From the NCBI GenBank assembly GCA_017448345.1, contig JAFSLP010000075.1, positions 33,265 through 97,264 on the forward strand: DNA of 64,000 bases. Reading direction: 5' to 3'. Shown one piece after another: positions 1 to 64,000 of the stretch. A program made the position numbers and the translations under genes. Origin of the DNA: Paludibacteraceae bacterium. GTDB taxonomy: Bacteria; Bacteroidota; Bacteroidia; Bacteroidales; Paludibacteraceae. The notes below the pieces were generated by a model. That model was given only the letters and a program-made list of their open reading frames with translations. It made no database searches and had not been told where the DNA came from. The stretch's first letter is position 1; every line of letters starts with the position of its first letter.

Positions 1-2
1 TA

Positions 3-668
3 CCATGTTCCATTTACCGTTCGGAGGAGTTCTGGGGGCGTGCAGACGGATGGTATATATTAGCGTTGGTGGATGTGCTGGAAGCCTATATGAAGGGGGC
101 AACGGACAATGGACAAGGGACAAGGGACCAAGTACCAAGTACCGTTTCTCATTCGGCGGAGTTTAAGATACTGCACGGGTATCTGAAGGAACTGGCAGAG
201 GGGCTGGTGGCGCGACAGGACCCCATGACAGGATGCTGGTACCAGCTGCTGCAATACGGGCCGGAGAAATGCGCGACGCAGGGCGTGGACGACACCGGTT
301 CGCCCCAATACACGAACGTAGCGGAAGGCGGCACACAGTGCAACTACTTGGAGTCCTCAGCATCGTGCCTGATTACGGCGGCACTGCTGAAAGGCACGCG
401 GTTAGGGCTGCTGGACTATGCGGAAGCCGGCAAACGCGGTTTTGAAGGTATCGTGAAGCATTTCCTGACAACAGGCTATGACATCACGTCCAGCTGTCAG
501 TCGGCAGGGTTGAGCAAAGACCGTAACGGCACTGCCGCCTATTACCTGATAGGCAAAGACGTGCCGATACAGGATAACACAGAAGGAAAAGTGTTAGGAG
601 CCTTCCTGATGGCTGCCGTGGAATATGAGCGGGCCTACCCACCCAAAGCGGCAACGAGGGAGAAATAG
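3..668 (+). CDS. GH105/GH88-type unsaturated glucuronyl/rhamnogalacturonyl hydrolase, 3' part
   Basis: This is the C-terminal part of a glycoside hydrolase whose start lies before the window; the frame is open from base 3. Family members cleave unsaturated uronic acids from pectin- or glycosaminoglycan-derived oligosaccharides. The motif EEFWGRADGWYILALVDVLE (codons from about base 24) matches the W-G-R-x-x-G-W barrel signature of GH105. Downstream, QDPMTGCWYQLL and SSASCLITAALLKG also follow the family pattern. After LEAYMKG, a stretch (NGQGTRDQVPSTVS) is encoded by imperfect 7-nt repeats of the GGACAAG/ACCAAGT type and looks like an in-frame insertion between helices. The protein ends at TAG 666-668. 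Nothing is known about upstream neighbours. Family assignment is fairly safe; the exact substrate is not known. Confidence 0.8.
   Translation, partial: PCSIYRSEEFWGRADGWYILALVDVLEAYMKGATDNGQGTRDQVPSTVSHSAEFKILHGYLKELAEGLVARQDPMTGCWYQLLQYGPEKCATQGVDDTGSPQYTNVAEGGTQCNYLESSASCLITAALLKGTRLGLLDYAEAGKRGFEGIVKHFLTTGYDITSSCQSAGLSKDRNGTAAYYLIGKDVPIQDNTEGKVLGAFLMAAVEYERAYPPKAATREK
104..143. repeat. Heptamer-type tandem repeat inside the GH105 gene
   Basis: Imperfect 7-nt units (GGACAAT, GGACAAG, GGACAAG, then ACCAAGT twice) run in tandem and stay in frame with the glycosidase. The same words recur in other genes of this window. Confidence 0.75.
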
Positions 669-684
669 ACCAAGAACCTAATGT

Positions 685-720
685 AATGGTATCGGAATAG
701 TATTTCAGGAGGAGGGTATC
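685..720. repeat. 36-bp dispersed repeat, copy A
   Basis: This 36-bp sequence (starts AATGGTATCGG, ends GAGGGTATC) occurs again as a perfect reverse complement at 38883-38918. Both copies lie 70-96 bp upstream of the start codon of a giant surface-protein gene, in opposite orientations relative to the gene. It could be a regulatory site or a remnant of a mobile element. Confidence 0.8.
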
Positions 721-757
721 TCATGGGTATTGAGAAATCAAGATACCAAAAAAACAG

Positions 758-765
758 TAACTTTG
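758..765 (+). promoter_or_regulatory. Possible -7 box (TAACTTTG) for the 2226-residue protein gene
   Basis: TAACTTTG fits the Bacteroidota -7 consensus TAnnTTTG and lies 51 bp before the start codon. No good TTTG sits 19-21 bp upstream, so this is a weak call. Confidence 0.35.
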
Positions 766-816
766 TGCTCAAAATTGTGAAACTATTAACCACAGGATAC
801 ATAAGGAATTAAAACC

Positions 817-8163: not shown

Positions 8164-10101
8164 TCAGAAGCGGTAGGTTACCCCGATGAGGCAGTTGATG
8201 CCCTGCGAACGGTAGCCGTAATAATACTCGTTCTTGCGGTGGAGCCAGTTGTTGACTTGCAGGAAGAGCGAGAGGTTGGGCTTGGGTTCGGGACGAAGAA
8301 CCGTACCATTTGCCATTTTGTCATTTACTATTTTATCATTTTTTTTGCCCACCCACATGTCGTATTGCAGACCGAGGTCGAGGTCAATGACCGGTTTGAG
8401 GGTATGCTCACCGTCTTTGGCTAACGCCAGCCTGCTTCCTTCGAAGCGGTTATCGGAGTAGAGCGACCAGTGGCGGTCAATCCGTCCGTCGATACGGCAG
8501 CCTATCTGCCAGTTGGCGCGGTCATAGACGGTATTGTTAGTGCCGGCATTGATGGCGTCAATCTCTGTGCAGGGAGAGGTGAAGGTGTAGCCTATCTTCT
8601 CATGCCGGAGAGCGGACCAGAAGTAATAGTCACCATAGATGTTGATACGCACGGCATCGCGGAAGTGGTAGTTGATCTGTCCGCCCACCTTTCCCCGGCT
8701 GTAGTCGCTGTAGGTGTATGCGAAATCTCCAGCCTCCATCGCTACCGGAGGTTGGTATTTCACGCCGTTATAGACAGACTGGTTGTCGGTATTGGCGATG
8801 AGGGTCATCTGGTCGAACTGCAAGGCATAGCCTCCGTGGAGTTCCAAGAGCAGGTTATGAAGCGGCCGGATATGGAATCCCAGTTCTCCATCCACGGGCG
8901 TGTATGCGCACGAGTGGTGCGAGACGATACCCGGATGGATGAGGCGGTAGCGGTTTGCCTCCATATAACTTTGCAGGCTCCCCAGTCCGTGCGAACCGGT
9001 TATATCCGCATAGATAGTCAGCCATTCGCGTGCCACCTGTGCTTCCAAGTTAATATGCGGCGAGGGAGCGAAGGAGAGGTTCTCCACGCCAGAGAGATTG
9101 TTCTTTCCGCGTCCCAGATTGAGGTCCAGATTGACGCCGAGGTGCAGGCGCAGCCGTCTGCCATGATAGGCATAATACGGCTCCACACGGAAGTTATGGC
9201 GTCCGTTATAGAGTGAGTCGGGTATGACATCCGCCAGCGAACGGAGCTGCAAGAAATTATTCTGCACATACAGCACGGCACCCACATGGTGCGCCTCGCT
9301 ATGCCAGTCAAACGACGCGTGGGTCCGTATCTGGTGTTCGGCTACGGCACCGGGTTTGGCAAAGAGCATGTAGCCCGTCTGGAGCTTGTATTGGAAGTCC
9401 TGTTTGGCATTCGCCTTGACGCCGAAGAACGCTTCTGCCGTCCAGAGGGCAGTCAGGTCTTTGGCAAGCGGAGACTGATAGTTGGAATACGCCTCCTTGT
9501 TCTTCGCCCACATGTTCCACGGCTGGGAATAGTCATACCAGTGACCGTATTTGTGGTAATAGATATTGCCACCATTGAAGCCGAAATAGAGGTCGCAAGC
9601 GGAGTAGGTGTGGGTGAAATCCAGTCCTATCTTGGTCTTACTCAAGGCGGCGAGACCCCATTCCGCCTTATGATGCGCATAGACATCAAGGATGGAGTTT
9701 TTGCCGTCATTGAGATGATAGCCGAAATCAAAGAGCGTGTTGGGGTGCCCTATGGCTCCGCGCAGGTATCCGTGATAGGGTTTGCCGGGTTCGAAGCGTG
9801 TAGGCTGCGAGAGGAGCGGATTGAAGGCGGAGCCCGGAGCGAGTTCCGCCGTGTATTCGGAATACTCGACAGGCGCAGGGTCAATCGTTGTCTCAATCAC
9901 CTCCAGTTTGGTGGATACCTTGCCTGCAGCCTGTATCACCGGCTGGAAATCCCGCTCCACGGTGACGGAACGGTTCAGGGTGCTGTCAGACTGGGCGAGA
10001 GCAGGAACAAAGACCGCTTCGCTCAAAGACAAAAGACCAAAGACAACCGATATACCGATATACCGGAATACCGATATTCCGAGAGTATTAATCCTCTTCA
10101 T
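8164..10101 (-). CDS. Outer-membrane beta-barrel protein, partner of the TPR protein (645 aa)
   Basis: An exported protein with a signal peptide ending ...VPALAQ, then a conserved N-terminal segment (LNRSVTVERDFQPVI, with ETTIDPAPVEYSEY) seen in Bacteroidales barrel proteins annotated as TonB-dependent-receptor-like. The rest is made of alternating amphipathic strands, and the last residue is Phe (GVTYRF), as expected for a BAM substrate. It has no plug domain or TonB box that I can see, so active transport is unproven. Its start overlaps the end of the upstream TPR gene by 14 bp, indicating a coupled operon. Two oddities: the signal-peptide codons are made of short repeats (10023-10085), and a loop near the C-terminus (KKNDKIVNDKMANGT) is encoded by the AAATGACC-type repeat. 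Confidence 0.7.
   Translation of the reverse strand: MKRINTLGISVFRYIGISVVFGLLSLSEAVFVPALAQSDSTLNRSVTVERDFQPVIQAAGKVSTKLEVIETTIDPAPVEYSEYTAELAPGSAFNPLLSQPTRFEPGKPYHGYLRGAIGHPNTLFDFGYHLNDGKNSILDVYAHHKAEWGLAALSKTKIGLDFTHTYSACDLYFGFNGGNIYYHKYGHWYDYSQPWNMWAKNKEAYSNYQSPLAKDLTALWTAEAFFGVKANAKQDFQYKLQTGYMLFAKPGAVAEHQIRTHASFDWHSEAHHVGAVLYVQNNFLQLRSLADVIPDSLYNGRHNFRVEPYYAYHGRRLRLHLGVNLDLNLGRGKNNLSGVENLSFAPSPHINLEAQVAREWLTIYADITGSHGLGSLQSYMEANRYRLIHPGIVSHHSCAYTPVDGELGFHIRPLHNLLLELHGGYALQFDQMTLIANTDNQSVYNGVKYQPPVAMEAGDFAYTYSDYSRGKVGGQINYHFRDAVRINIYGDYYFWSALRHEKIGYTFTSPCTEIDAINAGTNNTVYDRANWQIGCRIDGRIDRHWSLYSDNRFEGSRLALAKDGEHTLKPVIDLDLGLQYDMWVGKKNDKIVNDKMANGTVLRPEPKPNLSLFLQVNNWLHRKNEYYYGYRSQGINCLIGVTYRF
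8304..8343. repeat. AAATGACC-type repeat in the barrel gene
   Basis: On the minus strand, units such as AAATGAT, AAATGAC and AAATGGC follow one another and encode NDKIVNDKMANG in a near-C-terminal loop. The family recurs in rluD, obg and the 62 kb BspA-like gene. Confidence 0.7.
10009..10028. repeat. 20-nt dispersed element next to heptamer repeats, copy 1
   Basis: AAAGACCGCTTCGCTCAAAG occurs here and as its exact reverse complement at 15748-15767. Shorter forms (11 of 12 core bases) occur at 15896-15907 and 48221-48232. Each copy abuts a tandem repeat. Confidence 0.7.
10023..10085. repeat. Tandem repeats encoding the signal peptide of the barrel protein
   Basis: AAAGACA/AAAGACC heptamers followed by a CCGATATA/ATACCGAT series. 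On the minus strand they encode ISVFRYIGISVVFGLL, the hydrophobic core of the signal peptide. Confidence 0.7.
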
Positions 10102-13039
10102 TGTTATCCTCCTTTCTTACAGGTTTTTCCAGTTCGTCGAGTGCTGCCAAGCGTTTGCCGATGAGAGTCTGTATGTCATCCTTGGCGGTGTAGTTCTGCT
10201 GTAGCACGAGCAGGTACTGGCGTGCTTGGAAATACTCGCCTCTGTCGCGGTTGATGTCGCTGAGAAGGATGAGTGCACGTGCCAGCCAGTACTGCTGCTG
10301 GGTGTTCATCTTGGTAAACTCCATGATTTCCACCTCGGCGGCATCAAGGTCTTTGGCAGCATAGAAACTCTCGGCGAGCAGGTATTTGGCTTCCGCGCCT
10401 TGTGCGGTGCGTACCTCGGCAGAGAGGAGCTGCAGGTCCGGCTGTGCCTTTTCCCATTGCCCCAAAGCGATATAGGCTTTTGCGCGTTCGTAGAGTGCTT
10501 CCTTGCGTGTGTCATCGCTCAGCGGCGTGTCGGAGAGAATCTGTTCGGCGATGTCGATGGTAGCCTGATGGCGTGCGAGAGCTTGATTACAGCGCAGGAT
10601 GCCGAGGCGTGCCACGGTAGCGTTCTCCCGTGACGAGGCGAGGGCATGCATCTTGTAGAACCCGTCAAGGGCGCAGGTGTAGTCTCCTTTGTCATAACAG
10701 ATTTCCGCCACGCGTGTAGCCGCTTCCTCCTGATAGGGGTTGGCAGCAGTCTCGGCGAGAATGATATAGTGCCCCAAGGCGTCGGAGGTCTTGCCCAACC
10801 GGTAATAGGAGTCGGCAAGGTAATAGCGTGCGGATGTGCAGTAGCGTCCTCCTGCACAATACTGCGTGATGTAGTTGTTGAGCGAGACAGCAGCTTTCTG
10901 GTACGACGCCTGCATATACTGCATCTCCGCCGCCGCATAGAGCAGACTGTCCTCCTGTGTGGAGACGGTCATGTTCATCTTGGCGAGGGACTTGGTGTAG
11001 GCGAGGTATTCGTTCACGTTGCCCTGCTCCACATACAATGCCTGTAATGCTTCCAGTGCTGTGTAAGCCTCCTCCGTAGCCGGATATTTCTCTATCGTGC
11101 GTCGGTAAGCTGCAATGGCTTGGTCGTTGTTGCCAAGGTTGCGGTAGAGCATCGCCCTCTCCAGCGACGCCTTGCGTGCCAGCGAGGAGTGGGGATAGGC
11201 GTTGAGCAGCTGCTCGTAGGTGACGATAGCGCCCCGTTCGTCGTTCTGCTCCAGTTGTGCACGTGCCGTCTCATAGACACCGTCATCGGCGTAGTCCGAC
11301 TTGGGATAGCGTTTGACGAGTTCGCGCAGGACGCTGATTTTCTCTGCATACTTACGCTGCAAGCCGAGTGCGTATCCGCGTTGGAAGAGCGCATAGTCGG
11401 CTCCGGCTGCCTGCAGTCTGCTGACCTGTGTATAATAGGTGATAGCGGACTGGAACTGGCGTGCGTTGAAATAGCAGTCACCGATACGGTTAAGGGCATC
11501 GGCGTAGGTGGGGTCGGTGGCGTCTGCCGCATCTATATAGGCTGAGAAGGCGTCACGCGCCTTGCCGTACTCGTTCTGTGAGAAAGCGCAGTATCCCTGC
11601 AGGTATCGTGCAATGCCGTAGTTGGCGGACTTGCGGGCGTCGGGACGGGCGAAGAAGTACGTCAGGTCCTTCTCGCACGCCATGTAACTGCGCAGACGGT
11701 AATAGGCTTCCGCCCGCACGTAATATGCCTCCGTGGTGTATTTGTCGGACTCGCCGGCATGGCTGATGACCTCAGTCATCCACTCTGCCGACTGCTGCAT
11801 CTTGCCCTGCAGGAAATTATCCGCGCCCAGTTGGTAACGCAGGTACTGCTTGGTCTCGCGCATCTTGGGCGAGGGGTTTGGGATGGAGTCCAGCGTGGCG
11901 ATGGCAGCGGCATAGTTCTTACTCTGCATCAGTGCATCGGAGAGGAGGCGGTAGATACTGCCTTCGTACTTGGAGTCCGGGAAGCGGTGCAGGAAGTCAT
12001 TGAAGGCGCGAACGGACTCGCCCAAGGCGCTGGAGGACTGATAGGTGCAGAGGGTGTAGTTGTAACTGGCTTCTTCTGTCACGGCGGGTGTCAGTCCGAA
12101 GCCTGCTGCGGCTTGGTAGGACAGTTTCGCCTGCTCCGGCTGGTTGAGCTTGACATAAGCATTACCCATCGCCAGACAGGTAGCCTCAGAGAGTGTGTCT
12201 TTCTCCTGTTTGACCTGCTTGTATGCTTTGACAGCGGCTTCATAGTCGCCGGACCGGAACGCGGCATTCCCGAGCATATACATGTCGTTGCGCAGCGGCT
12301 CAGCTTTCTGTTCCGATGCCGAGGCGAGGTAGCTGTTCAGGTGCTCAGTCGCCTTGGCATAGTCCTGCTTGAGGTAAGCCATCTCTCCCAAGATACGGTG
12401 CAGTTCTCCGTTATTGAGGCTCTCCGGGTGTTCGCGAAGCAGCGTGCTGGCACGTGCCTCCGCCTCTTCGTAGTTACCCTGCGCATAATACAGCTGCACC
12501 AGATAATAGGGGACGGTCTTGTCGTACTGAGGAGTGTTCTCCAAGTGCTTGAAGGCAGGCAGCGCCTTGTCGTATTTCTCCAGTTTATACATGCAATAGG
12601 CATAATAATAGGTGCCGCGCGTGGTGTGGCGGCTCGTGCCTTTGCTCAGTTGGGAGAAATAGACAGATGCCCGCTGGTACTCCTGCATCATCAGATAGGC
12701 GTATCCGCGATAGAACGAATAGTCGGTCTGATGGGGACGTGTGAGCACCTGCGGGTTGAGCGCCTCAAACACTTTGAGTGCCTGTTTGTAATGCCCTTTC
12801 TCCACCTGCAGGACACCCTGCATGAACTTCACCTCGTCGGCGAAGGTGGTGTATGGGTATGCCTCCAAGTAGGTCTTGAGGTCGCGCTGCAGCAGCTTGT
12901 CGCGTCCGTCAAAACGGGCTTCAAGAGCTTGGTAGCGCGTCTCCATCTCCGTTGTCTGGGCTGTAGAACGGACAAAGGGACAAAGTACCAAATACAAGGT
13001 ACAAAGGGTCGTGATTACGTACTGTCGTAATGACGTCAT
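10088..13039 (-). CDS. Large exported TPR-repeat protein (983 aa)
   Basis: The protein has a signal peptide (hydrophobic TTLCTLYLVLCPFV, then TAQ) and then almost entirely tetratricopeptide repeats, visible as recurring patterns such as YYYAYCMYKLEKYDKALPAF and YYLADSYYRLGKTSDALGHY across the whole length. Such proteins are scaffolds for complexes in the periplasm or at the outer membrane. It starts 12 bp after the potD stop and overlaps the downstream barrel gene by 14 bp, so the TPR protein and barrel are probably a functional pair, as in other Bacteroidales. The C-terminus is acidic (KEDNNEED). The signal-peptide codons are built from repeats (12970-13012). No enzymatic domain is visible. 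Confidence 0.75.
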   Translation of the reverse strand: MTSLRQYVITTLCTLYLVLCPFVRSTAQTTEMETRYQALEARFDGRDKLLQRDLKTYLEAYPYTTFADEVKFMQGVLQVEKGHYKQALKVFEALNPQVLTRPHQTDYSFYRGYAYLMMQEYQRASVYFSQLSKGTSRHTTRGTYYYAYCMYKLEKYDKALPAFKHLENTPQYDKTVPYYLVQLYYAQGNYEEAEARASTLLREHPESLNNGELHRILGEMAYLKQDYAKATEHLNSYLASASEQKAEPLRNDMYMLGNAAFRSGDYEAAVKAYKQVKQEKDTLSEATCLAMGNAYVKLNQPEQAKLSYQAAAGFGLTPAVTEEASYNYTLCTYQSSSALGESVRAFNDFLHRFPDSKYEGSIYRLLSDALMQSKNYAAAIATLDSIPNPSPKMRETKQYLRYQLGADNFLQGKMQQSAEWMTEVISHAGESDKYTTEAYYVRAEAYYRLRSYMACEKDLTYFFARPDARKSANYGIARYLQGYCAFSQNEYGKARDAFSAYIDAADATDPTYADALNRIGDCYFNARQFQSAITYYTQVSRLQAAGADYALFQRGYALGLQRKYAEKISVLRELVKRYPKSDYADDGVYETARAQLEQNDERGAIVTYEQLLNAYPHSSLARKASLERAMLYRNLGNNDQAIAAYRRTIEKYPATEEAYTALEALQALYVEQGNVNEYLAYTKSLAKMNMTVSTQEDSLLYAAAEMQYMQASYQKAAVSLNNYITQYCAGGRYCTSARYYLADSYYRLGKTSDALGHYIILAETAANPYQEEAATRVAEICYDKGDYTCALDGFYKMHALASSRENATVARLGILRCNQALARHQATIDIAEQILSDTPLSDDTRKEALYERAKAYIALGQWEKAQPDLQLLSAEVRTAQGAEAKYLLAESFYAAKDLDAAEVEIMEFTKMNTQQQYWLARALILLSDINRDRGEYFQARQYLLVLQQNYTAKDDIQTLIGKRLAALDELEKPVRKEDNNEED
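12970..13012. repeat. Heptamer-type repeats in the TPR-protein signal peptide
   Basis: Units of the GGACAAA/GTACAAA/TACAAGG type run in tandem. Read on the minus strand they encode TTLCTLYLVLCPFV. The same words occur at 44828-44863 and upstream of adk. Confidence 0.7.
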
Positions 13040-13051: not shown

Positions 13052-14311
13052 TTATCGTGCTAATTTGATTTCATTCCACATCTCCAGCAGCATCTCCTGT
13101 GCATCGCCTGCGTCGTGCATCAGCGCGCAGCGGTCGATGATACTCTTGTCGGCATAATAAACGGGATTGAGGTGCAGTGCGTGCGGGTCGAGCATTTCAT
13201 CCCCTACTTTGATGGGTTCGTCGCCGAAGAAATAGGAAGCATCAACGGTCTCGGGCCACTCCTCCTCGTCGTTCTGCTCGGCAAGGATGACAGCGGCAGC
13301 TTCGGGTCCGCCTGCGCAGGATACATAGCCTATCTCGTCCATGTTAGCCAGTGCGTTGTCGGCACGGCACATATAGTCGATGAAATAGGTGGCAGCCTTC
13401 ACGTTCTTGGCAAATTTAGGAATCACCCATCCGTCGAACCATACGTTGGAGCCTTCCTGCGGCACGATATAGTCCAGCATCACGCCCATGTCGGCAGCTT
13501 CCTCGATGGCAAACTGTGCATCGCCGGACCAGCTGAGGTTGAGCCATGCCTTGCCTTTGGTCATCTCTTCCTTGCCGAAATCGACCTCCCAGCCGCATAT
13601 CTGTTTCTTGGCTTTGAGCAGGATGTCTTTGACAGCAGCCACGCGCTTGGGAGTGATGTTACGCACCAGCTCGTCGCGGTTGACTCTGCCAGCCTCTATA
13701 TCGTCGGCAAAAGCATAGAGCACGAGGACGGAATAGACATCGCGGAACGCATCTTTCATCAGGATACGGTTCTCGAACTTGGGGTCGAGCACAGCCCCCC
13801 AGCTGAGCAGGTCCTCGCGGTTGACGAACTGCGGGTTGTAAATGAAACCGGTAGTGCCCCACATATAGCCCACGGTGTAGTCGCTGACCTTGATGTCGTG
13901 TCTCGGAGCCATCTGCTGGAACTTGCCGGTAACGAAGGGCGAGATGTTGTCAAAATACCAGATGGAGTCCGGGATGAGCTCTTTTTGGATAGGCAGGATG
14001 AGGTCTTTCTTCAGCATCCGCTCAATGATATACTCGGACGGGCAGAAGACATCATAGTCCTCGTGTCCCACCTCAATCTTGGTGAGGGCTGTCTCGTTGA
14101 TGTCGAAGGTCTCATAGACAAGCTCCACTTTCTCGCCGGTCTGGTCGAAATACCACTGCTCGAAGTTCGCCTTGACGTCCTCGTCGATATAGTCCGCCCA
14201 GTTGAGCACTTTGAGCTGGTGTGCACGGTCGGTACCGGTACAGGAACAGAGTATTAGCGCGAGTGCCAATACAATTGAGAATTGAGAATTGAGAATTGAG
14301 AATTTTTTCAT
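13052..14311 (-). CDS. potD: Spermidine/putrescine ABC transporter substrate-binding lipoprotein
   Basis: The periplasmic polyamine receptor of the Pot importer. The N-terminus is a lipoprotein signal ending in LILCSC, with the lipobox Cys at about residue 23. The mature part starts with the family motif LKVLNWADYIDEDV. Further typical blocks are YDVFCPSEYIIERM, GYMWGTTGFIYNP, NVWFDGWVIPKFAKN and the C-terminal helix. Length (419 aa) is slightly above the usual 350-370. It is the last pot gene; the order on the minus strand is potA-potB-potC-potD. The signal peptide contains FSILNSQFSI, encoded by four copies of the heptamer AATTGAG. Whether it binds putrescine or spermidine cannot be decided. 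Confidence 0.9.
   Translation of the reverse strand: MKKFSILNSQFSIVLALALILCSCTGTDRAHQLKVLNWADYIDEDVKANFEQWYFDQTGEKVELVYETFDINETALTKIEVGHEDYDVFCPSEYIIERMLKKDLILPIQKELIPDSIWYFDNISPFVTGKFQQMAPRHDIKVSDYTVGYMWGTTGFIYNPQFVNREDLLSWGAVLDPKFENRILMKDAFRDVYSVLVLYAFADDIEAGRVNRDELVRNITPKRVAAVKDILLKAKKQICGWEVDFGKEEMTKGKAWLNLSWSGDAQFAIEEAADMGVMLDYIVPQEGSNVWFDGWVIPKFAKNVKAATYFIDYMCRADNALANMDEIGYVSCAGGPEAAAVILAEQNDEEEWPETVDASYFFGDEPIKVGDEMLDPHALHLNPVYYADKSIIDRCALMHDAGDAQEMLLEMWNEIKLAR
14272..14304. repeat. Heptamer repeat (GAGAATT) in the potD signal peptide
   Basis: Over four perfect 7-nt units in a row. Because 7 is not a multiple of 3, the reading frame shifts through the unit and gives FSILNSQFSI. Confidence 0.85.
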
Positions 14312-16704: not shown

Positions 16705-16770
16705 TTACTATTTGGTCATTTACCATTTGTTCATTTATTCATTTACCATTTATTCATTTATTTAGTCATT
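16701..16770. repeat. AAATGACC-type repeat filling the potA-potB gap
   Basis: About nine imperfect 7- to 8-nt units (minus strand AAATGAA, AAATGGT, AAATGAC) cover the whole gap. They supply the stop and last codons of potA and run into the potB start codon. Confidence 0.8.
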
Positions 16771-21167: not shown

Positions 21168-21169
21168 TG

Positions 21170-24631: not shown

Positions 24632-24635
24632 GACC

Positions 24636-24677: not shown

Positions 24678-24688
24678 CGAATAACCTC

Positions 24689-48227: not shown

Positions 48228-48305
48228 TCGCGACTTTTGTCTTTCGACTTTTGTCTTTTGTCTTTTGACTGAAACTATTAATTATTAACTATTAATTATT
48301 AATTC
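48228..48305. repeat. TTTTGTC and TATTAAT heptamer blocks
   Basis: Two different 7-nt families stand next to each other: TTTTGTC-type (48235-48270) and TATTAAT-type (48275-48303). They are preceded by the GACCGCTTCGC word shared with 10012 and 15753. Confidence 0.8.
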
Positions 48306-51825: not shown

Positions 51826-51869
51826 TAAATGCCCAATGGCAAATGAAAAAATGGTAAATGGCAAATGAC
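51825..51869. repeat. AAATGGC/AAATGAC repeat spanning the rluD start codon
   Basis: Units AAATGCC, CAATGGC, AAATGAA, AAATGGT, AAATGGC, AAATGAC. The rluD ATG and its first codons (MANDP) lie inside the repeat. Confidence 0.8.
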
Positions 51870-52910
51870 CCGATAGAAAATATGGACGAAGAGCTCTGGG
51901 AGCGTTGGCGCTGCGAAGTTGACAAAGGGCAGGGCAAGGAACGTATAGACAAATACCTTGCCACGCATATGACCAACACCAGCCGCAACCGCATTCAGAC
52001 GGCTGCGGATGCCGGCAACGTATGGGTGAACGGTGAGCCGGTGGCGTCCAACTACCGCGTCAAACCCGGAGATGTCATTCAGGTGCTCCTTGACCATGAG
52101 CCGCATGATTTCACCATCACGCCGGAGAACATACCGCTGGACATCGTCTATGAGGACGGCGACCTGCTGGTGGTCAACAAACCTGCCGGACTGGTTGTGC
52201 ATCCCGGGCACGGCAACTACGAGCACACGCTCCTGCATGCCCTCGCGTGGCATTTCGAGCATAGCCAAATGGTAAATGACCAAATGGTAAATATCAATAA
52301 TCCCGATATAGGTCTGGTGCACCGGATAGACAAAGACACCAGCGGTCTGCTGCTGGTAGCCAAGACGCCGGAAGCGAAGGCGCACCTTGCCAAGCAGTTC
52401 TTCGACCATACCACCGAGCGGACCTATAACGCCCTTGTCTGGGGAACTTTCAAGGAGGAGAGCGGCACCGTCGAGGGGGCGTTGGCACGCGACAACCGCG
52501 ACCGCACCATCTACAGGGTCTGGGACCCCGAGGAATGTCCGCAGGCGAAGGAGGCTGTCACCCACTGGCGCGTCTTGGAGCGGTTCCCCTACGTGACGCT
52601 TGTCGAATGCCGCTTGGAGACCGGACGCACACACCAGATACGCGTGCATATGAAACATATCGGGCATCCCCTTTTTGCGGACGAGAAATACGGCGGATGC
52701 GAGATTCTCAAAGGGCTGCGTACACAGAAATACCGCCAGTATATAGAAAACTGCTTTGCGCTCTGCCCGAGGCAGGTCCTGCACGCCAAGACCCTCGGTT
52801 TTACCCATCCGCGCACGGGAGAGCGGCTGTTCTTTGACAGCCAATGGCCCGAAGACATGACTAACCTGATTAACAAATGGAGGCATTATGAGACAAATAC
52901 TCTGGGTTGA
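51858..52910 (+). CDS. rluD: 23S rRNA pseudouridine synthase, RluD/RluA family
   Basis: Makes pseudouridines in 23S rRNA. An N-terminal S4 domain (about 28-80; RIDKYLATHMTN, DAGNVWVNGEPV) precedes the catalytic domain with VVNKPAGLVVHPGHGN and HRIDKDTSGLLLVAKT (catalytic Asp 158). GRTHQIRVHMKHIGHPLFAD is also intact. Just before the catalytic motif is an insert (SQMVNDQMVNINNPD, about 136-148) encoded by the AAATGACC repeat; typical RluD proteins have a short loop here. The extreme N-terminus is also repeat-encoded. The 3' end overlaps porX by 23 bp, suggesting coupling. Confidence 0.93.
   Translation: MANDPIENMDEELWERWRCEVDKGQGKERIDKYLATHMTNTSRNRIQTAADAGNVWVNGEPVASNYRVKPGDVIQVLLDHEPHDFTITPENIPLDIVYEDGDLLVVNKPAGLVVHPGHGNYEHTLLHALAWHFEHSQMVNDQMVNINNPDIGLVHRIDKDTSGLLLVAKTPEAKAHLAKQFFDHTTERTYNALVWGTFKEESGTVEGALARDNRDRTIYRVWDPEECPQAKEAVTHWRVLERFPYVTLVECRLETGRTHQIRVHMKHIGHPLFADEKYGGCEILKGLRTQKYRQYIENCFALCPRQVLHAKTLGFTHPRTGERLFFDSQWPEDMTNLINKWRHYETNTLG
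52265..52297. repeat. AAATGACC repeat inside rluD
   Basis: CAAATGGTAAATGACCAAAT and one more AAATGGT unit, in frame, encoding QMVNDQMVN eight residues before the catalytic HRID motif. Confidence 0.85.
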
Positions 52911-56715: not shown

Positions 56716-57282
56716 ATGCTGAATATTATTTTATGTGGTGCGCCCGGTAGCGGCAAAGGCACCCAATCCGGGTTTATCGTCGAGAAATACGGGCTGCAGC
56801 ACCTCTCTACGGGGGATGTGTTGCGTGCGGAGATTGCCTCCGGCAGTGAGCTCGGGAAGAAGATTGACGACCTCATTTCAAAAGGTAATCTCGTCCCCGA
56901 TGATCTCATGTACGGCGTGATAGAGAACTATATAGCCTCTCTTCCCGCTGATTGCAAAGGTACTATCTTTGACGGCTATCCCCGTACGGTGGCGCAGGCT
57001 GAGGCGCTTACTTCCCTCCTTGCCAAATACCATATGGACGCCATCATGATTGACCTCTTGGTGGACGAACAGCTGCTCATCCAGCGTCTTATCGAACGCG
57101 GCAAAGTGAGCGGACGCGCTGATGACAACCTCAACACTATCCGTCACCGCATCGCCGTCTATCACAACCAGACGGAGCCTATCGCCCATTATTACCTCCA
57201 TCATGGCAACTACTGCCCTGTCAACGGAAACCATTCCGTAGAGGATGTGTTCCTGCAGATTGAGCGTATCTTGGATAAATGA
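56716..57282 (+). CDS. adk: Adenylate kinase, short form (188 aa)
   Basis: Catalyses AMP + ATP = 2 ADP. P-loop GAPGSGKGTQ (8-17), AMP-binding STGDVLRAEI, GNLVPDDLM, FDGYPRTVAQAE, and the lid region RGKVSGRADDN without the long zinc-type lid insertion, as in other Bacteroidales. ATG 56716 fits the family start MLNIILCG. The stop is followed directly by AAATGACC repeats that run into obg. Confidence 0.95.
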   Translation: MLNIILCGAPGSGKGTQSGFIVEKYGLQHLSTGDVLRAEIASGSELGKKIDDLISKGNLVPDDLMYGVIENYIASLPADCKGTIFDGYPRTVAQAEALTSLLAKYHMDAIMIDLLVDEQLLIQRLIERGKVSGRADDNLNTIRHRIAVYHNQTEPIAHYYLHHGNYCPVNGNHSVEDVFLQIERILDK

Positions 57283-57320
57283 CCAAATGGTAAATGATTA
57301 AATAGTAAATGCTCATGACC
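57275..57320. repeat. AAATGACC repeat spanning the adk-obg junction
   Basis: Units AAATGAC, CAAATGG, TAAATGA, TAGTAAATGC. They provide the adk stop codon (TGA) and the obg start codons. Confidence 0.8.
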
Positions 57321-58526
57321 AATTTTATCGACTACGTGAAGATATACTGCCGCTCAGGCAAGGGCGGAGCCGGGTGTATGCACCTCCATCGTGCCAAATA
57401 TCTGCCCAAAGGCGGACCGGACGGCGGCGACGGCGGTAAGGGCGGGTCGGTAATCCTGCATGGAAACAGGAACCTCTGGACCCTCCTGCACCTCAAGTAC
57501 CAGAAACATATCATGGCTACTGACGGAGGCAGAGGCGGTCAGAGTCGTTCCTTCGGCAAAGACGGCGAGGACAAGATTATCGAAGTGCCTTGCGGCACAG
57601 TCGTCTATGACGGGGAGACGGGGGAATTTATCTGCGAGGTGAAGGAGCATGACGAGCGCGTGGTGCTCCTCAAAGGCGGTCGCGGAGGACTGGGGAACTG
57701 GCATTTCCGTACCGCCACCAACCAAGCGCCCCGTTATGCACAGCCCGGTGAACCGGCGCAGGAAAGGACGGTCATCATGCAACTCAAAGTATTGGCGGAC
57801 GTGGGTCTTGTCGGCTTCCCGAATGCCGGCAAGTCCACCCTGCTCAGTGTCGTCTCCGCCGCCAAACCGGAGATAGCCGATTACCCTTTCACCACACTCA
57901 CGCCCCAGTTGGGCATTGTCTCCTATCGGGACGGACGGTCGTTCTGCATGGCGGACATACCCGGTATCATCGAGGGAGCAAGCGAGGGGAAAGGACTCGG
58001 GCTCCGTTTCCTGAGACATATTGAGCGCAATGCCGTGTTGCTGTTCATGGTTCCGGCTACCAGCGAAGATATTGTCGGCGAGTACAACATCCTTCTTCGC
58101 GAACTGGAGAACTACAACCCGGAACTCCTCACCAAGGCGCGCATTCTGGCAATCTCCAAGATGGATATTGCACAACCGTCCGCTTCCCCGGATTCTTCCG
58201 CTTCTTCCGATTTCTCGGATTTCTCGGATATATCCGAAAAAATAGGAATACCCGTTCTGCCCATATCGTCCCTCACCGGCGAAGGCATTGCCGCGCTCAA
58301 AGATGCGCTGTGGGAGGAACTGAACAAGGAGCAGAACCAAGTCATCGAGATTTCCCATGCCCCGATTGACATAAATGAACCAATGCCAAATGACCAAATG
58401 GTAAATGACCAAATAAATGACCAAATGGTAAATGACCAAATGGTAAATGAAACTACCATCTACCTCAACGAGGTGGAGGAAGAGTGGGACCTTGACAAAT
58501 ACAAAGGCATCGGCTGGGACGAATAG
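57309..58526 (+). CDS. obg: GTPase Obg/CgtA with repeat-derived C-terminal extension
   Basis: A ribosome-associated GTPase. The glycine-rich Obg fold is at 3-160 (FIDYVKIYCRSGKGGAGC, GPDGGDGGKGGSVIL), then the G domain with P-loop GFPNAGKST (about 168-176), switch FTTLTPQLG, DIPGIIEG and SKMD. Within the G domain after SKMDIAQ, a Ser/Asp-rich loop (PDSSASSDFSDFSDISEK) is encoded by TCGGATTTC-type repeats. After the G domain a segment (NDQMVNDQINDQMVNDQMVN, about 360-381) is encoded by the AAATGACC repeat. Both stay in frame. ATG 57315 (MTNFIDYV) is an equally likely start. It is followed by a CLC channel gene. Confidence 0.94.
   Translation: MLMTNFIDYVKIYCRSGKGGAGCMHLHRAKYLPKGGPDGGDGGKGGSVILHGNRNLWTLLHLKYQKHIMATDGGRGGQSRSFGKDGEDKIIEVPCGTVVYDGETGEFICEVKEHDERVVLLKGGRGGLGNWHFRTATNQAPRYAQPGEPAQERTVIMQLKVLADVGLVGFPNAGKSTLLSVVSAAKPEIADYPFTTLTPQLGIVSYRDGRSFCMADIPGIIEGASEGKGLGLRFLRHIERNAVLLFMVPATSEDIVGEYNILLRELENYNPELLTKARILAISKMDIAQPSASPDSSASSDFSDFSDISEKIGIPVLPISSLTGEGIAALKDALWEELNKEQNQVIEISHAPIDINEPMPNDQMVNDQINDQMVNDQMVNETTIYLNEVEEEWDLDKYKGIGWDE
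58188..58245. repeat. TCGGATTTC-type repeat inside obg
   Basis: GATTCTTCCGCTTCTTCCG, GATTTCTCG (twice) and GATATATCCG encode a Ser/Asp-rich loop next to the SKMD nucleotide-specificity motif. Confidence 0.75.
58377..58450. repeat. AAATGACC repeat inside obg
   Basis: About ten 7- to 8-nt units in tandem (AATGCC, AAATGACC, AAATGGT ...). Composite units are 12 or 15 nt, so the frame is kept. Confidence 0.9.
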
Positions 58527-58529: not shown

Positions 58530-58590
58530 GTACTATTTGGTCAAATGATTCAATGACCAAATAAATGAACAAATTGTAAATGAACAAATG
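58530..58590. repeat. AAATGACC-type repeat between obg and the CLC gene
   Basis: Units TCAAATGATT, CAATGACC, AAATAAATGAAC, AAATTGT, AAATGAAC, AAATGAG. The start codon of the CLC gene is part of the last unit. Confidence 0.8.
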
Positions 58591-60372
58591 AGAAAATTCT
58601 ATGACTTTGTCATAGACTGGCGTGAACGCCACATCAGCGAGAAGCATCTGGTGCTCCTCCTCTCTTTCTTCGTCGGGGCGCTCTCGGCGGCTGCGGCGGC
58701 ATTGCTCAAGTCGTTCATCCATCTCATCCAGTGGCTTGTCGAGGAACAGCTCATCGCCGGTGAGCGCACATGGTGGTATCTCATCACGCCGATTATCGGT
58801 ATCACACTTGCGGCGTTGTTCGTCAAATATATTGTGCGGGATGACATCTCGCATGGTATCACCAAGATTCTTTATGCCATCTCCCAGCGCAAATCTATCA
58901 TCAAGGCGCATAACATGTGGAGTTCGGTCGTCGGCTCCGGACTGACCATCGGTTTCGGTGGTTCGGTGGGTGCCGAGGCGCCTATTGTCCTCACGGGTGC
59001 GGCTATCGGCTCGAACCTTGCCAAGGCGTTCCGGCTCGACCAGAAGACGATGATGCTTATGATTGGTTGCGGTGCTGCCGGAGCCATCGGTGGTATCTTC
59101 AAAGCGCCTATCGCCGGACTCGTCTTCACGCTGGAGGTGCTGATGATGGACCTGACGATGACCTCTGTCGCGCCGCTGCTCATCTCCTCGGTCACTGCCA
59201 CCGCTATCTCATATATCCTCACCGGCACGGACCCTATGTTCCCGCTGCATAACGCCGAGCCTTTCCTTGTCCAGCGTATCCCGTGGTATCTCGTCCTCGG
59301 TGTCGTCTGCGGATTTATCAGCCTCTATTTCACACGCGGCATGAACGGTCTGGAGCGATGGTTCAAACATTCGATTAAGAACATGTGGGTGAAGCTGCTG
59401 TTAGGAGGCATGACACTGAGCGTGCTGATTTTCATTTTCCCTCCTTTGTACGGCGAGGGTTACGATGTCATCCGCCAGTTGATTAACGGTGACTGCATGT
59501 CCGCATTGGCTAACAGCCCTCTGGAGCATAACGAATGGGCGTCTCGTAACGGGTCATGGCTTCTGCTGACTTATTTCGGTTTTATCATTTTATTCAAGAT
59601 AGTCGCGAGTGTTGCGACGAACGGTGCCGGAGGCGTCGGAGGTATCTTCGCCCCCTCGCTTTTCATGGGAGCTATTACCGGTTTTCTCACTGCGCGGATA
59701 ATGAACATGACAGGCTTGAGTGTGCCGGAGGCTAACTTCGCGCTGGTCGGTATGGCGGGACTGATGTCGGGAGTCATGCACGCGCCGCTGACGGGTATCT
59801 TCCTCATTGCGGAGCTGACGGGCGGATACCATCTCTTCATGCCGCTGATGATTGTCTCTGTTATATCCTATCTGACCATCATGCTCTTCGAGCCGCACTC
59901 GCTCTACGCCATGCGTCTGGCGCAGAAAGGCGAACTGCTGACTCATAACAAGGACCGTAACGTCCTCACACTCTTGAAGATGGATAATGTGCTCGAGACG
60001 GATTTCACAACCGTCTTTCCCGATATGACGCTGGGTGAACTGGTTAAAGTGATTAGCGAGAGCCACAGAAATATCTTCCCGGTGATAGACCATAAGGGGC
60101 ATCTGAAGGGAATACTTCTCTTGGATGAAGTGCGGAATATCATGTTCCAGCCGCGTCTCTACAAGCGCTTCACCGTCGGGCAGCTGATGACCTCGCCGGC
60201 GGCGGTCCTGCCCTTTGATATGACGATGGACAAGGTGATGGAGAAGTTTGAGGACACCGGGGCGTGGAATCTGCCCGTCGTGGATCAGGACCGCCGCTAT
60301 CTGGGTTTCGTCTCAAAGTCCAAGATTTTCAATTCATACCGCCACGTGCTCGTCCATTTCAGCGACGAGTAA
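58588..60372 (+). CDS. CLC-family chloride channel/transporter with CBS domains (594 aa)
   Basis: About ten membrane helices followed by a CBS pair (about 455-590; TVFPDMTLGELVKVISESHR, QLMTSPAAVLPFDMTMDKVM). The anion-pathway motif reads GSVGAEAPIVLTG (about 125-137), keeping the gating Glu of the canonical GREGP. By eye, FTLEVLMMD aligns with FIIEEM of the E. coli antiporter, giving Val where the proton glutamate (E203) sits. Channels of the family also have a non-acidic residue there, so passive chloride conductance is possible. GGIFAPSLFMG is also present. The gene ends directly at the convergent stop of the next gene (no gap). Confidence 0.9.
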   Translation: MRKFYDFVIDWRERHISEKHLVLLLSFFVGALSAAAAALLKSFIHLIQWLVEEQLIAGERTWWYLITPIIGITLAALFVKYIVRDDISHGITKILYAISQRKSIIKAHNMWSSVVGSGLTIGFGGSVGAEAPIVLTGAAIGSNLAKAFRLDQKTMMLMIGCGAAGAIGGIFKAPIAGLVFTLEVLMMDLTMTSVAPLLISSVTATAISYILTGTDPMFPLHNAEPFLVQRIPWYLVLGVVCGFISLYFTRGMNGLERWFKHSIKNMWVKLLLGGMTLSVLIFIFPPLYGEGYDVIRQLINGDCMSALANSPLEHNEWASRNGSWLLLTYFGFIILFKIVASVATNGAGGVGGIFAPSLFMGAITGFLTARIMNMTGLSVPEANFALVGMAGLMSGVMHAPLTGIFLIAELTGGYHLFMPLMIVSVISYLTIMLFEPHSLYAMRLAQKGELLTHNKDRNVLTLLKMDNVLETDFTTVFPDMTLGELVKVISESHRNIFPVIDHKGHLKGILLLDEVRNIMFQPRLYKRFTVGQLMTSPAAVLPFDMTMDKVMEKFEDTGAWNLPVVDQDRRYLGFVSKSKIFNSYRHVLVHFSDE

Positions 60373-61926: not shown

Positions 61927-61958
61927 TTTGCATATATCAAAAAAAAGCTGTACCTTTG
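61927..61958 (+). promoter_or_regulatory. Promoter of the 463-aa BspA-like gene
   Basis: TTTG (61927-61930), 20 bp, TACCTTTG (61951-61958). The -33 box is extended (TTTGCATATATCAAA), exactly as at 63699. The leader is about 45 nt. Confidence 0.85.
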
Positions 61959-62011
61959 CACTCGAATTTGAAAATCTATCACGGTGCAAAATTAGTATAA
62001 ATTTCTAACAT

Positions 62012-63403
62012 ATGCAAATTATGGAACGGAAAAATGTTTTTTGTCTGCTTTTTGTAGCACTTTTGTCATTAAACGGTACGTACGCGGCGTATTATACGGG
62101 TACATGCGGAGAAAATCTCACTTGGCACTTGGATTCCGAAGAAGGACTGTTGGTGGTCTCCGGAGAAGGGGAGATGATTGGCAGTAACTATTGCCTGCCG
62201 CCTGTCAACCAGTATGTAAAGCAGGTACAGCTGCCGGAAGGGCTGACGGCGCTCGGGAACGGGGCGTTGGGAAACCTGCAGAACTTGGAGTCTGTGACTA
62301 TCCCGGAAGGAGTGACCTCCATAGGCGAGCGCGCTTTCTTCTTCTGCCAGAAACTGGAGTCCATACCCCTGCCCGCCGGGCTTGCGTATATAGGAAAAGG
62401 AGCTTTTCAGGACTGTACGCACCTCAAGTCCATAACCGTTCCTTCCGCCACGAAAACCATTGAGCAGGGAGCTTTCTTTGGCTGTTCGCGCATGACTTCC
62501 GTCACCCTGCCTGAAGACTTGCAAATCATCTATGCCAATACCTTTCAGGACTGCAAAGCGTTGACGCAGATTGACCTGCCTGCCTCCCTCACCTCTATCG
62601 GGGAACAGGCGTTTGCAGGAGACGTTGCGCTTGCTGTCATCACCTGTCAGGCTCTCACACCCCCTGCTATCGTGGAGAGCACTTTCTCCGGCGTGCCCGA
62701 CGAGACGCTGCTTGAGGTGCCGGACGAGAGCTATTATCTCTATAAGAATGACACCTACTGGGGGCGTTTCCGCATGAAAGATGCGCCATATGAGGAGATT
62801 CCGGCAAAGGTGACGGTGGACCCCGGAGAGACAACAGCCATGTTCGCGTGGCCCGCTGACACACAGGCTTCATCCTATCAGATAGATATTTACAAAGACG
62901 GTGCGGTCTTCTGCAAACTCACTCTCGGTCCCAAAGGACAGCTCCTCGCCATAGCGTTCTCCCTGCCTCAACGCAAAAATGACCAAATGGCAAATGACCA
63001 AATAAATGCCCAAATGGTAAATGACCAAATAAATGCCCAAATAAATGACCAAATGGTAAATGACCAAATGGTAAATAATTCGGTCTTGTCCTTTATGGTC
63101 ACGGGCTTGGACGAAGCGTCGCGGTATAACTATGTGCTCTCCGCCTTGGACGCTGACGGCAAACCCATACACGTCTATACAGGCGATTTCGCCACGCTCG
63201 GCTATCAAGGCGAACTCAAAGGCGGAGGCGATGAGGTCATTCCTACGCCGCCCATCGTGCCCGGAGACCCCGAGTCACCGGCTACGGATGTCCCGTCGCT
63301 GATTCAGCCTGCCCGTACAAGCGTCAAACTCTTCCGTGACGGACAGCTCCTGCTGCTTCTCGGCAACCAAACCTACGACATCTCCGGCAAACGCCTTGAG
63401 TAG
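62012..63403 (+). CDS. Small BspA-like leucine-rich-repeat surface protein (463 aa)
   Basis: Signal peptide (ERKNVFCLLFVALLSLNGTYA), then a short N-terminal domain (TCGENLTWHLDSEEGLLVVS) typical of BspA-like proteins. About six LRR_5 repeats follow at 70-225 (VTSIGERAFFFCQKLESIPL, TKTIEQGAFFGCSRMTSVTL), then a fibronectin-III-like domain (about 267-398) that is split by 34 residues (NDQMANDQINAQMVND...) from the AAATGACC repeat. The end RTSVKLFRDGQLLLLLGNQT fits the tail shared with the large proteins. ATG 62021 is an alternative start. It has its own strong promoter. Confidence 0.88.
   Translation: MQIMERKNVFCLLFVALLSLNGTYAAYYTGTCGENLTWHLDSEEGLLVVSGEGEMIGSNYCLPPVNQYVKQVQLPEGLTALGNGALGNLQNLESVTIPEGVTSIGERAFFFCQKLESIPLPAGLAYIGKGAFQDCTHLKSITVPSATKTIEQGAFFGCSRMTSVTLPEDLQIIYANTFQDCKALTQIDLPASLTSIGEQAFAGDVALAVITCQALTPPAIVESTFSGVPDETLLEVPDESYYLYKNDTYWGRFRMKDAPYEEIPAKVTVDPGETTAMFAWPADTQASSYQIDIYKDGAVFCKLTLGPKGQLLAIAFSLPQRKNDQMANDQINAQMVNDQINAQINDQMVNDQMVNNSVLSFMVTGLDEASRYNYVLSALDADGKPIHVYTGDFATLGYQGELKGGGDEVIPTPPIVPGDPESPATDVPSLIQPARTSVKLFRDGQLLLLLGNQTYDISGKRLE
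62976..63078. repeat. AAATGACC repeat, longest coding copy
   Basis: About 14 units (AAATGACC, AAATGGC, AAATGCCC, AAATGGT) over 103 bp, fully in frame, placed inside the FN3-like domain of the BspA-like protein. Confidence 0.92.
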
Positions 63404-63698
63404 CCTGCACCCTTTGTCCCTTCTCCTTTGTCCCTTCTCCTTTGTTCCTTTCGGCGGCATTTTTGCCGCCGTTTGCTTTCTTGGTATTTCTTTCTTGGTA
63501 TTCCGTTTTTTTCTTTTTCTTTCTTGGTATTTCTCTTTAGTATTTTTCTTTCTCGGCTGTTTTCTTTCTTGTATTTTTCTTTCTTGGTAGTTTCAGGGCA
63601 ATACAATTGCCCGCTCTCCTCTCCGCATGGTTCCGGATGAGCGCAGCGGTCCGGTCTATCCGGATTTTCCGGTTTTCCACCTTCCATCCCCCAAAAAA
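63404..63698. other. Pyrimidine-rich spacer with repeats
   Basis: CTTTGTCCCTTCTC repeats (63411-63450) are followed by TTTCTTTCTTGGTATTTC repeats (63472-63595). No gene is supported. The last part leads into the promoter at 63699. Confidence 0.65.
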
Positions 63699-63730
63699 TT
63701 TGCATATATCAAATATTTTTTATATCTTTG
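63699..63730 (+). promoter_or_regulatory. Promoter of the last gene
   Basis: TTTG (63699-63702), 20 bp, TATCTTTG (63723-63730), with the same extended TTTGCATATATCAAA as at 61927 and the same TTTGCACTCG downstream. Confidence 0.85.
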
Positions 63731-63844
63731 CACTCGGAAAAACCTATCCATCTATCCTGCGCGTTCGTATCGCTACCTATATATCCTAGACTTTGTTATT
63801 TTCGAACCATACCTAAACAGCATAATATCAACCGTTTACGCCCC

Positions 63845-64000
63845 ATGTCACAACACTTGAAAACACGCGTAATCCGCCGTTTGAAGTCCGTTGACTGCAC
63901 TTTTGTGTCACTTCCGGCAGGTTCCACTCCCCATAAAAGGGGCGTGTACTACTTTCGTTTCTGTGCGGGCGTGGAGTGCTACTGGGGTACCATGGATTAC
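63845..64000 (+). CDS. Unrecognised gene, 5' part only
   Basis: An open frame from ATG 63845 to the window end (52 codons): MSQHLKTRVIRRLKSVDCTF, then a Gly/Tyr-rich stretch (KRGVYYFRFCAGVECYWGTM). It has no signal peptide. The promoter at 63699-63730 gives a leader of about 108 nt. No family can be named from so short a piece. Confidence 0.5.
   Translation, partial: MSQHLKTRVIRRLKSVDCTFVSLPAGSTPHKRGVYYFRFCAGVECYWGTMDY

Follow-up and report, generated by a model that had tools for sequence, protein, structure and literature searches.

Heterocystous cyanobacteria carry short tandemly repeated repetitive (STRR) sequences, which are tandem heptamers of several families, and Rickettsia genomes contain palindromic elements, repeats of ~100–150 nt with a palindromic fold that lie in frame in many unrelated protein genes. 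According to a 2007 survey (Mrazek et al., as cited in PMC4679880), heptanucleotides are the most abundant class of long repeats in most genomes, and PMC4679880, as well as PMC4692102, reports the idea that 7 nt is the stretch contacting the polymerase. PMC4679880 is also the source for repeats of TAACTGA, which occur in Beggiatoaceae, in cyanobacteria and in five Bacteroidetes, Paludibacter propionicigenes among the last. PMC4692102 describes GGGNATC repeats, cites a report on a heptanucleotide repeat of Calothrix and states that detailed literature on heptameric repeats is unavailable. Counts of such repeats go back to 2007 (cited in PMC4679880), yet neither the 7-nt step nor their spread has a settled explanation. 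Here we examine the heptameric tracts of a 64,000-nt stretch of a Paludibacteraceae genome (hereafter the window) and of its genus. These tracts change length in 7-nt steps, draw on a small vocabulary, recur as one phrase in unrelated genes and replace one another at the same protein loop in sister species. We read them, at a little short of an even chance, as dispersed repeats produced by slippage in 7-nt steps together with short-patch insertion or overwriting of tracts, filtered by the reading frame. The initial annotation of the window did not know of such repeats in this group, an impression which the five Bacteroidetes with TAACTGA heptamers correct.

The window is part of contig C68 of its source genome, G000 (2.5 Mb in 120 contigs, 80.6% complete). 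Labels of the form G### denote genomes of the genus, and L### labels denote loci from them. Our G000 sample of 451 kb consists of the window and 20 further stretches. These were first taken from contigs with the AAATGACC word, and the stretches of G034 and G133 from contigs bearing the dispersed phrase described below. As this choice could inflate densities, other contigs were sampled as a check. Close relatives of the window's obg gene belong to bins labelled Bacteroidales, Paludibacteraceae or, in one case, Bacteroidia, many of them from rumen or gut samples. Coding sequence and spacers were distinguished by our own simple gene calls, whose coverage of the 451 kb is 85%.

An Excess of Period-7 Arrays

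Arrays whose smallest period is 7 occur in the G000 sample at 206 per Mb, compared with none at periods 1–6, 38 per Mb at period 8, 29 at period 10 and 58 at period 11; a fourth-order Markov sequence of equal size held none at period 7. The window alone has 188/Mb, the rest of the sample 209/Mb (81 arrays in 388 kb), and contigs without the AAATGACC word 172/Mb (20 arrays in 116 kb). The obg loci of 80 congeners (953 kb) contain 90 such arrays per Mb, and nine genomes of other families of the order yielded a single one in 311 kb. The peak at 7 that the initial annotation expected of a unit-length histogram is therefore present.

Within the window, 24 of 68 clusters have smallest period 7 at a minimum score of 30, against a mean of 1.05 (maximum 3) in 20 fourth-order Markov sequences; at a score of 40 the figures are 12 of 37 and none in any of the 20. 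Exact runs of at least 12 at lags 7, 14 and 15 number 4, 10 and 10, the mean in 20 third-order Markov sequences being 0. All word families listed initially were recovered by Tandem Repeats Finder, and the count of period-7 arrays far exceeds that of these Markov controls. The accompanying statement that the unit is nearly always 7 was too broad. At a score of 40, a smallest period of 7, 8, 14, 15 or 21 is found in 22 of the 37 clusters, while the other 15 have other periods. Arrays of 10, 11, 24, 33 and 54 nt occur in the window too.

The excess spans the genus, but unevenly. Period-7 densities in two samples each reached 350 and 272/Mb in G035 (the latter from 37 kb) and 200 and 183/Mb in G034 (the latter from 60 kb), whereas G133 had 300/Mb in contigs bearing the phrase and none in 27 kb of other short contigs, and G028 none in 80 kb, with none either in the 40 kb sampled as a check. 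Samples of 20–80 kb from other congeners gave 38/Mb (G008), 50 (G011, G014, G050), 75 (G017, G059), 91 (G027), 95 (G051) and 150 (G049). A second, lower peak stands at period 11, at ~54–58/Mb in the genus samples and 13 in the other families of the order; heptamers do not account for it.

A Small Vocabulary

Ten heptamers are found in 89 of the 104 arrays of period 7, 14 or 21 in the G000 sample. The 272 period-7 arrays sampled across the genus collapse into 113 consensus words, headed by AAAGTCG, AAAAATT, AATTACG, AATTCTC and AAAGTTG. The word families examined share a design in which a core of 4–6 nt is constant, the other nucleotides vary, and one core follows the next at 7 nt (or at 7 and 8 nt). 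AAAG cores are spaced by 7 in 83 of 90 intervals and by 14 in the other 7, and AAATG cores by 7 or 8 in 108 of 128. The AAATGACCAAATG word occurs 133 times in G000 (its reversed control once) and is present in 33 of 61 genus genomes; outside the genus it is at chance level (8 of 40 genomes, control 7 of 40).

Word sharing was judged against a null in which the columns of the unit are permuted. This null is fairer than an earlier random-seed null, which was too weak (1%), and it lowers the excess. A heptamer is common to 13.4% of array pairs within G000, with 6.7% expected, and sharing between G000 and both G034 and G133 is 2–3 times the null. Cyanobacterial plasmid DNA (300 kb), picked via a match of a heptamer-like peptide, holds 73 period-7 arrays/Mb and shares a heptamer with G000 in 11.1% of array pairs, against 4.8–4.9% under permutation; once AATTACG arrays are removed, 10.4% are shared and 7.3% expected. 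The likeness to cyanobacterial heptanucleotide repeats noticed at the outset is thereby in part supported. Some common vocabulary exists, mostly one word, since (AATTACG)3 has matches in 9 of 395 Bacteroidota genomes, which span 9 genera and count G000 among them, and its reversed control in none, whereas (AAAGTCG)3, G000 aside, was found in only 2 of the 148 genomes searched in the class, 1 of which or another matched its reversed control. We accordingly rejected a vocabulary common to all lineages, which AATTACG favours and AAAGTCG does not. Selection of words for open reading frames was rejected as well: both, one or no strand is open in 29, 50 and 20% of the words, compared with 26, 49 and 25% of permuted ones, so that the effect is little.

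Length Change and a Dispersed Phrase

Between related species, tracts gain and lose length in steps of 7 nt. Pure indels between close relatives (n = 11) measured 4, 7, 8, 11, 14, 14, 21, 21, 21, 40 and 126 nt, seven of them multiples of 7, in agreement with the shared 7-nt step postulated initially. The set comprises blocks with at least 4 and fewer than 400 gapped columns in 12 of the closest pairs, redundant ones omitted; L004 stands in two pairs, and two of the seven multiples concern one tract (L001/L004 and L004/L007). Four of the seven were flagged by script as lag-7, and a fifth lies, by eye, in a heptamer tract. Whole tracts may also be present in one member of a pair and absent from the other, as in spacers of L012/L023 and L014/L020 and, for L022/L026, downstream of obg.

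One 19-mer made of heptamers, ACAAAGTGACAAAGGACAA, lies in the RluD loops of two species and also, in G000, in a different gene. It occurs at 22 places in 14 of 101 genus genomes, while its reversed control occurs in none. These places represent ~17 gene contexts, MetK three times; others we presume, from their motifs rather than family searches, to be AlaRS, Ddl, fumarase, RsgA and MazG. At least two of the frames holding the phrase (L151, L155) are possibly not real genes. Wherever it is found, the phrase contains an 8-nt unit at the same position. Its longest open frame reads QSDKGQ at 21 places and KVTKDKVQ at one, a bias conditioned on the exact 19-mer, one of whose three frames has a stop.

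Word Exchange in Conserved Protein Loops

The clearest view of replacement comes from a protein of the RluD type, whose window copy matches E. coli RluD structures (E ~2e-51) in an alignment that leaves nine gaps in E. coli RluD at a hypervariable loop. Between the window and ten congeners, mean column identity is 88%, yet this loop of ~12 residues is unrelated in sequence. We found the loop in 22 of 81 loci; many of the remainder lack the gene or differ in the flanking motif. Seventeen of the loops have a lag-7/8 period at p 0.01 and two more at p 0.05, two fail and one is short. At least six word families are represented (TCAGNNN, GACAAAG, AATTAAA, CAATTCA, CACCAAT and AAATGACC).

Six of the aligned close pairs have the loop in both members; three of these have exchanged the word (L001/L004, L022/L026, L017/L019) and three have kept it (L004/L007, L020/L021, L005/L027). 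Identity over 60 nt on each side of the exchanged loops is 97.5, 98.3 and 90.8%, respectively, and no third sampled species is nearer in the flanks. The tracts of L022 and L026 are equal in length, at 36 nt, though their words differ. A fourth exchange separates L020 and L021 in a gene with PglZ and response-regulator domains, as assigned from the window copy. A tract of ~30–45 nt can thus appear at a site, or be swapped for one of another word, with its flanks unchanged; the route by which this happens is considered below. The initial view that each family has its own word overlooks what matters most here: one site can hold different words in sisters, and one word recurs at many unrelated sites.

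Two further proteins carry tracts. The Obg linker is an acidic stretch in most species read and carries NDQMV-type repeats in at least eight species and the window. In MetK, identified by its match to solved structures, the loop was found in 24 of 30 loci, these 30 being the top matches to a phrase-bearing query, which matched 45 genomes in all. It is short (e.g. DEGVTPEQ) in 13 of the 24 congeners and longer in 11, five of which are heptameric at p 0.01, with three word families. Over all 24 loops, the lag test gave those five at p 0.01 and three more at p 0.05 (one of them, L216, a short loop); 16 fail. In G000 itself, metK (G000:C15, L093:10641-10960) shifts frame at an AAAGTCG tract, and the upstream frame contains a stop; the change may be a repeat collapsed in assembly or a real variant.

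Position Relative to Genes and Tracts of the Window

That many tracts lie in coding sequence, as first noted, is confirmed by our gene calls for 64 of 157 clusters in the G000 sample. A further 70 are in spacers between co-directional genes, and the 93 outside gene calls amount to a non-coding excess. Of the co-directional spacer tracts, 33 start at the upstream stop codon and 18 span the distance from stop to next start. Arrays internal to coding sequence number 113 in 104 genes; the comparison across species covers arrays with a spanning relative. The AAATGACC word is on the coding strand in 18 cases, on the opposite strand in one and between genes of opposite direction in four. At the front of several window genes, reversed words read, by eye, as hydrophobic leaders. 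The tracts of the window are collected in Table 1.

Table 1. Tracts of the window, called with Tandem Repeats Finder except for the RluD loop, in window positions; hydrophobic leaders were read by eye rather than with a signal-peptide program.
Tract	Position	Strand	Context
GGACAAG (96-128) / ACCAAGT (127-143)	96..143	+	5' part of GH88-like coding sequence
AAATGACC-type, 15-nt (7+8)	8307..8341	-	3' part of 8164-10101 gene
8-nt ACCGATAT and 7-nt AAAGACA	10025..10082	-	5' end of 8164-10101 open reading frame; hydrophobic leader reading (by eye)
TACAAAG word, reversed	12970..13007	-	hydrophobic leader LCTLYLVLCPF of tetratricopeptide repeat protein (by eye)
GAATTGA word, reversed (GAGAATT family)	14273..14304	-	5' end of solute-binding protein gene
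AGAATAC/AGAGTAC, 14-nt composite (ACAGAGT family)	15700..15730	-	upstream part of permease open reading frame
AAATGACC-type	16697..16762	-	fills spacer from ATP-binding cassette ATPase gene 16762-18243 to permease gene 15910-16704
GTTGAAA/GTTGAGA/GTTGATA	21168..21301 (Tandem Repeats Finder 21162-21301)	+	spacer: 1 nt past stop codon, before called gene start 21377
AAAGTCG	24519..24549	+	coding sequence, close to C-terminus
ACAATGT-type	24583..24613	+	same C-terminal region as AAAGTCG tract 24519..24549
GAATTAC	24635..24682	+	spacer, 4 nt past stop codon
AAAGTCG (28477-28507) and ATGTACA (28542-28571)	28477..28571	+	C-terminal part of leucine-rich repeat protein 24870-28589
ACCAAGT/ACAAAGT	33442..33473	+	close to C-terminus of 28872-33548
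ACCAAG-type (7/8)	38201..38232	+	close to C-terminus of 33590-38305
AAAGTCG/AAAGTCA	38552..38588	+	within coding sequence 38440-38844
Two ACAATGT tracts (44829-44861, 44903-44920)	44829..44920	+	close to C-terminus of 38990-44938
CTTTTGT/CTTTCGA (TTTTGTC family; 48231-48270), then TATTAAT (48273-48304)	48231..48304	+	spacer before gene at 48308
AAATGGC-type	51827..51867	+	junction of 50998-51825 gene and rluD-type gene
AAATGACC/AAATGGT word, RluD hypervariable loop EHSQMVNDQMVN	52257..52292	+	coding; coordinates computed from residues 134-145; other words in other species
AAATGACC-type	57276..57311	+	whole spacer before obg, stop codon to start codon
AAATGACC/AAATGGT, Obg linker INEPMPNDQMVNDQINDQMVNDQMVN	58371..58450	+	coding
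AAATGAAC-type	58563..58591	+	spacer between obg and chloride-channel gene
AAATGACC/AAATGGT coding NDQMVNDQ	62977..63076	+	in leucine-rich repeat protein 62012-63403
CCTTTGTCCCTTCT (14-nt)	63411..63450	+	8 nt past stop codon at 63403

Several neighbouring features deserve separate mention. The predicted N-terminus of the RluD-type protein (51858-51890) comes from the spacer tract, which makes start sites next to tracts doubtful. A hairpin-like repeat, (GG)TAGTACGGCATTGGNTTGCCGTACTATC, counted by eye in five post-gene spacers (~24689-24720, 28704-28732, 38311-38341, 44944-44974 and 46476-46506), looks like a shared terminator or RNA element. In three spacers it is followed by 10-nt arrays, AATCGGAATT and CTCGGATAAA, which are partly inverted (28739-28816, 38357-38428, 44997-45099). 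Unlike the heptamers are a 24-nt array of 5.2 copies (15769-15893) in the upstream part of the permease open reading frame and a 54-nt array of 2.8 copies (18568-18716). The window also has an 11-nt array at 18832-18875 and a 33-nt array.

Weighing the Explanations

One rival account would have duplications of ~7 nt expand in place, their 7-nt loops escaping repair or fitting the footprint of the polymerase, with A+T-rich words being slippery. Small loops formed by short units are repaired by MutS, while longer ones may not be. A period-7 peak in G000 without units of 1–6 suits such purely local slippage, as do the retention of MutS (MutS_V) in 60 of 61 genus genomes and the word overlap across phyla; a loss of mismatch repair as the cause was accordingly rejected, the split MutS match of G026 being due to a run of N and not to a tract. 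The polymerase idea itself, attributed to the 2007 work, is reported in PMC4679880 and PMC4692102. Locally seeded inserts in MetK point the same way. Slippage alone does not, however, explain why ten heptamers recur in most G000 arrays, how one 19-nt phrase with its 8-nt unit at the same place came to lie in unrelated genes of 14 genomes, or how whole tracts are swapped for another word between sister species, and we consider it unlikely as a sufficient cause. Short-patch copying is proposed for these reasons. Ordinary homologous recombination between species, reshuffling old tract alleles at one loop, could supply the exchange, and distant congeners (L026 and L004; L022 and L013) do share a word, in the same phase, at the RluD loop. 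Yet flanks of 60 and 240 nt are nearest to the sister and not clearly drawn to carriers of the new word (six genomes, best seven matches each), so that any conversion patch must be very short, and the phrase in unrelated genes is left unexplained. We regard this route as improbable.

A role as functional elements, whether as sites for RNA- or DNA-binding proteins or as intergenic sequences for ribosome shuttling, the role proposed for the TAACTGA repeats of Beggiatoaceae, would agree with the spacer tracts that start at stop codons or run from stop to start, and with the strand preference of the AAATGACC word. Several of the same words nevertheless lie within coding sequence, some in both orientations; the spacer before obg carries quite different words, or none, in orthologous loci; and a reading-frame filter can account for part of the orientation. 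Such a role seems to us quite improbable. The fixed 7-nt step, the constant core with its variable part and the words common to different sites might instead suggest a dedicated templated enzyme, for example a telomerase-like reverse transcriptase adding 7-nt repeats from an RNA template. Among the polymerases surveyed (RVT_1 and the Y family), however, an RVT_1 match was found in only 15 of 61 genus genomes (two in G000) and in none of G034, G035 and G133, which are 97–98% complete. As these three have tracts, a reverse transcriptase is not required, and the proposal is very improbable. We give hardly any credence to an artefact of assembly or binning: the congener records are metagenome bins and the frame change in G000 metK possibly reflects a collapsed repeat, but in-gene tracts have one and the same open gene on either side in bins from several projects.

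The explanation we tentatively prefer thus combines 7-nt-step slippage with short-patch copying. Within a tract, whole 7-nt units are gained or lost, in keeping with strand slippage. A stalled or slipping nascent strand may, in addition, pair with the 4–6-nt core of another tract (for instance AAATG, AAAG, ACAA, GTTGA or AATTA), copy a few units from it and return; the 7-nt spacing from core to core would keep tracts interchangeable. Selection would act as a filter only, with tracts persisting in spacers, protein linkers or loops and hydrophobic leaders, where their reading is tolerated, and the tracts probably share no common function. A bolder form of this proposal, which we hold to be possible though doubtful, is that host replication in 7-nt steps, possibly with a Y-family polymerase, copies cassettes of 30–45 nt without a gene of their own, the smallest dispersing DNA known to us, into one another and over one another wherever in the genome they are tolerated, even in loops of essential enzymes. 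The cassettes would in this way rewrite loops and spacers faster than point mutation.

Several observations weigh against copying between tracts. The congener sequences are all metagenome bins, mostly of different species, and variation was seen between species; no donor tract and no copying event was caught in the sequences compared. Word sharing of G000 with the obg loci and with G035 is only 1.25–1.33 times the unit-permutation null, and hence partly a matter of composition. The 21:1 frame bias of the phrase could reflect selection of the peptide rather than neutral filtering. RluD loops with the AAATGACC word, read by eye, miss p 0.01 for a 7- or 8-nt lag. Lastly, the MetK inserts of L217 and L222 (GGTGAAT, GGTGAAC) resemble the adjacent GGTGACG or GGTGAGC; this favours a local origin for some tracts, with local seeding and no need of a donor.

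As to machinery, carriage by phage is not supported, with 0 exact matches in viral contigs to the two phrases tested. A Y-family polymerase (DinB) domain is present in 81 of 101 genus genomes. Genomes with the domain have at least two CTTTCRA matches in 50 of 81 cases, compared with 1 of 20 among those lacking it (Fisher p 2.5e-6, relatedness uncontrolled); at ≥90% completeness the figures are 18 of 33 and 0 of 11. The association is unadjusted and post hoc. Inside groups defined by MetK similarity it does not reach significance (p 0.11 and 0.46), and the AAATGACC word shows it less strongly (p 0.06). A reversed-pattern control was left unused, as the reversed word matches nearly the same word and is not independent. 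We regard the link as a lead and nothing more.

The genus offers a comparison in which such proposals may be pursued: its species range from rich to poor in tracts, sisters differ in the word at one loop, about half of the congeners read have a short MetK loop, and there are candidate genes. Were short-patch copying true, it would diversify loops of essential proteins in frame, and the tracts would represent selfish or neutral DNA of a new form. On the practical side, tracts may cause errors in gene models, in the calling of start sites and in short-read assembly of gut Bacteroidales.

Comparison with Known Systems

The tracts resemble cyanobacterial STRR sequences in having several heptamer families, and the plasmid DNA uses partly the same words, AATTACG above all; the cyanobacteria, however, belong to another phylum than G000, and our comparison covered plasmid DNA. 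With the palindromic elements of Rickettsia they have in common in-frame copies in unrelated protein genes. Those elements are longer and palindromic, whereas here the units are 7 nt, the tracts mostly ~30–100 nt and the phrase ~30–40 nt. The TAACTGA repeats of Beggiatoaceae, as described in PMC4679880, are likewise heptamers, mostly in spacers near start codons and shared with a few Bacteroidetes including Paludibacter, but they consist of one word where many are found here, and TAACTGA is not among the 40 commonest of our 113 consensus words. The GGGNATC repeats of Xanthomonas and Nostoc (PMC4692102) are heptamers too, often lie between the same genes in relatives and vary greatly in length and sequence; theirs is a G-quadruplex-forming word, whereas runs of three Gs are rare in the common words here. 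The long simple sequence repeats of Mrazek et al., as cited in PMC4679880 and PMC4692102, share the heptamer and a proposed 7-nt slippage step. Unlike them, many of the tracts here combine words of a small vocabulary into imperfect mosaics, occupy loops of conserved proteins and are swapped for other words between sister species. A search of the open-licence literature turned up no report of heptamers that disperse in frame or exchange words. Heptamer repeats are known as a kind, while their in-frame dispersal and the exchange of words at one site look new within the scope of that search.

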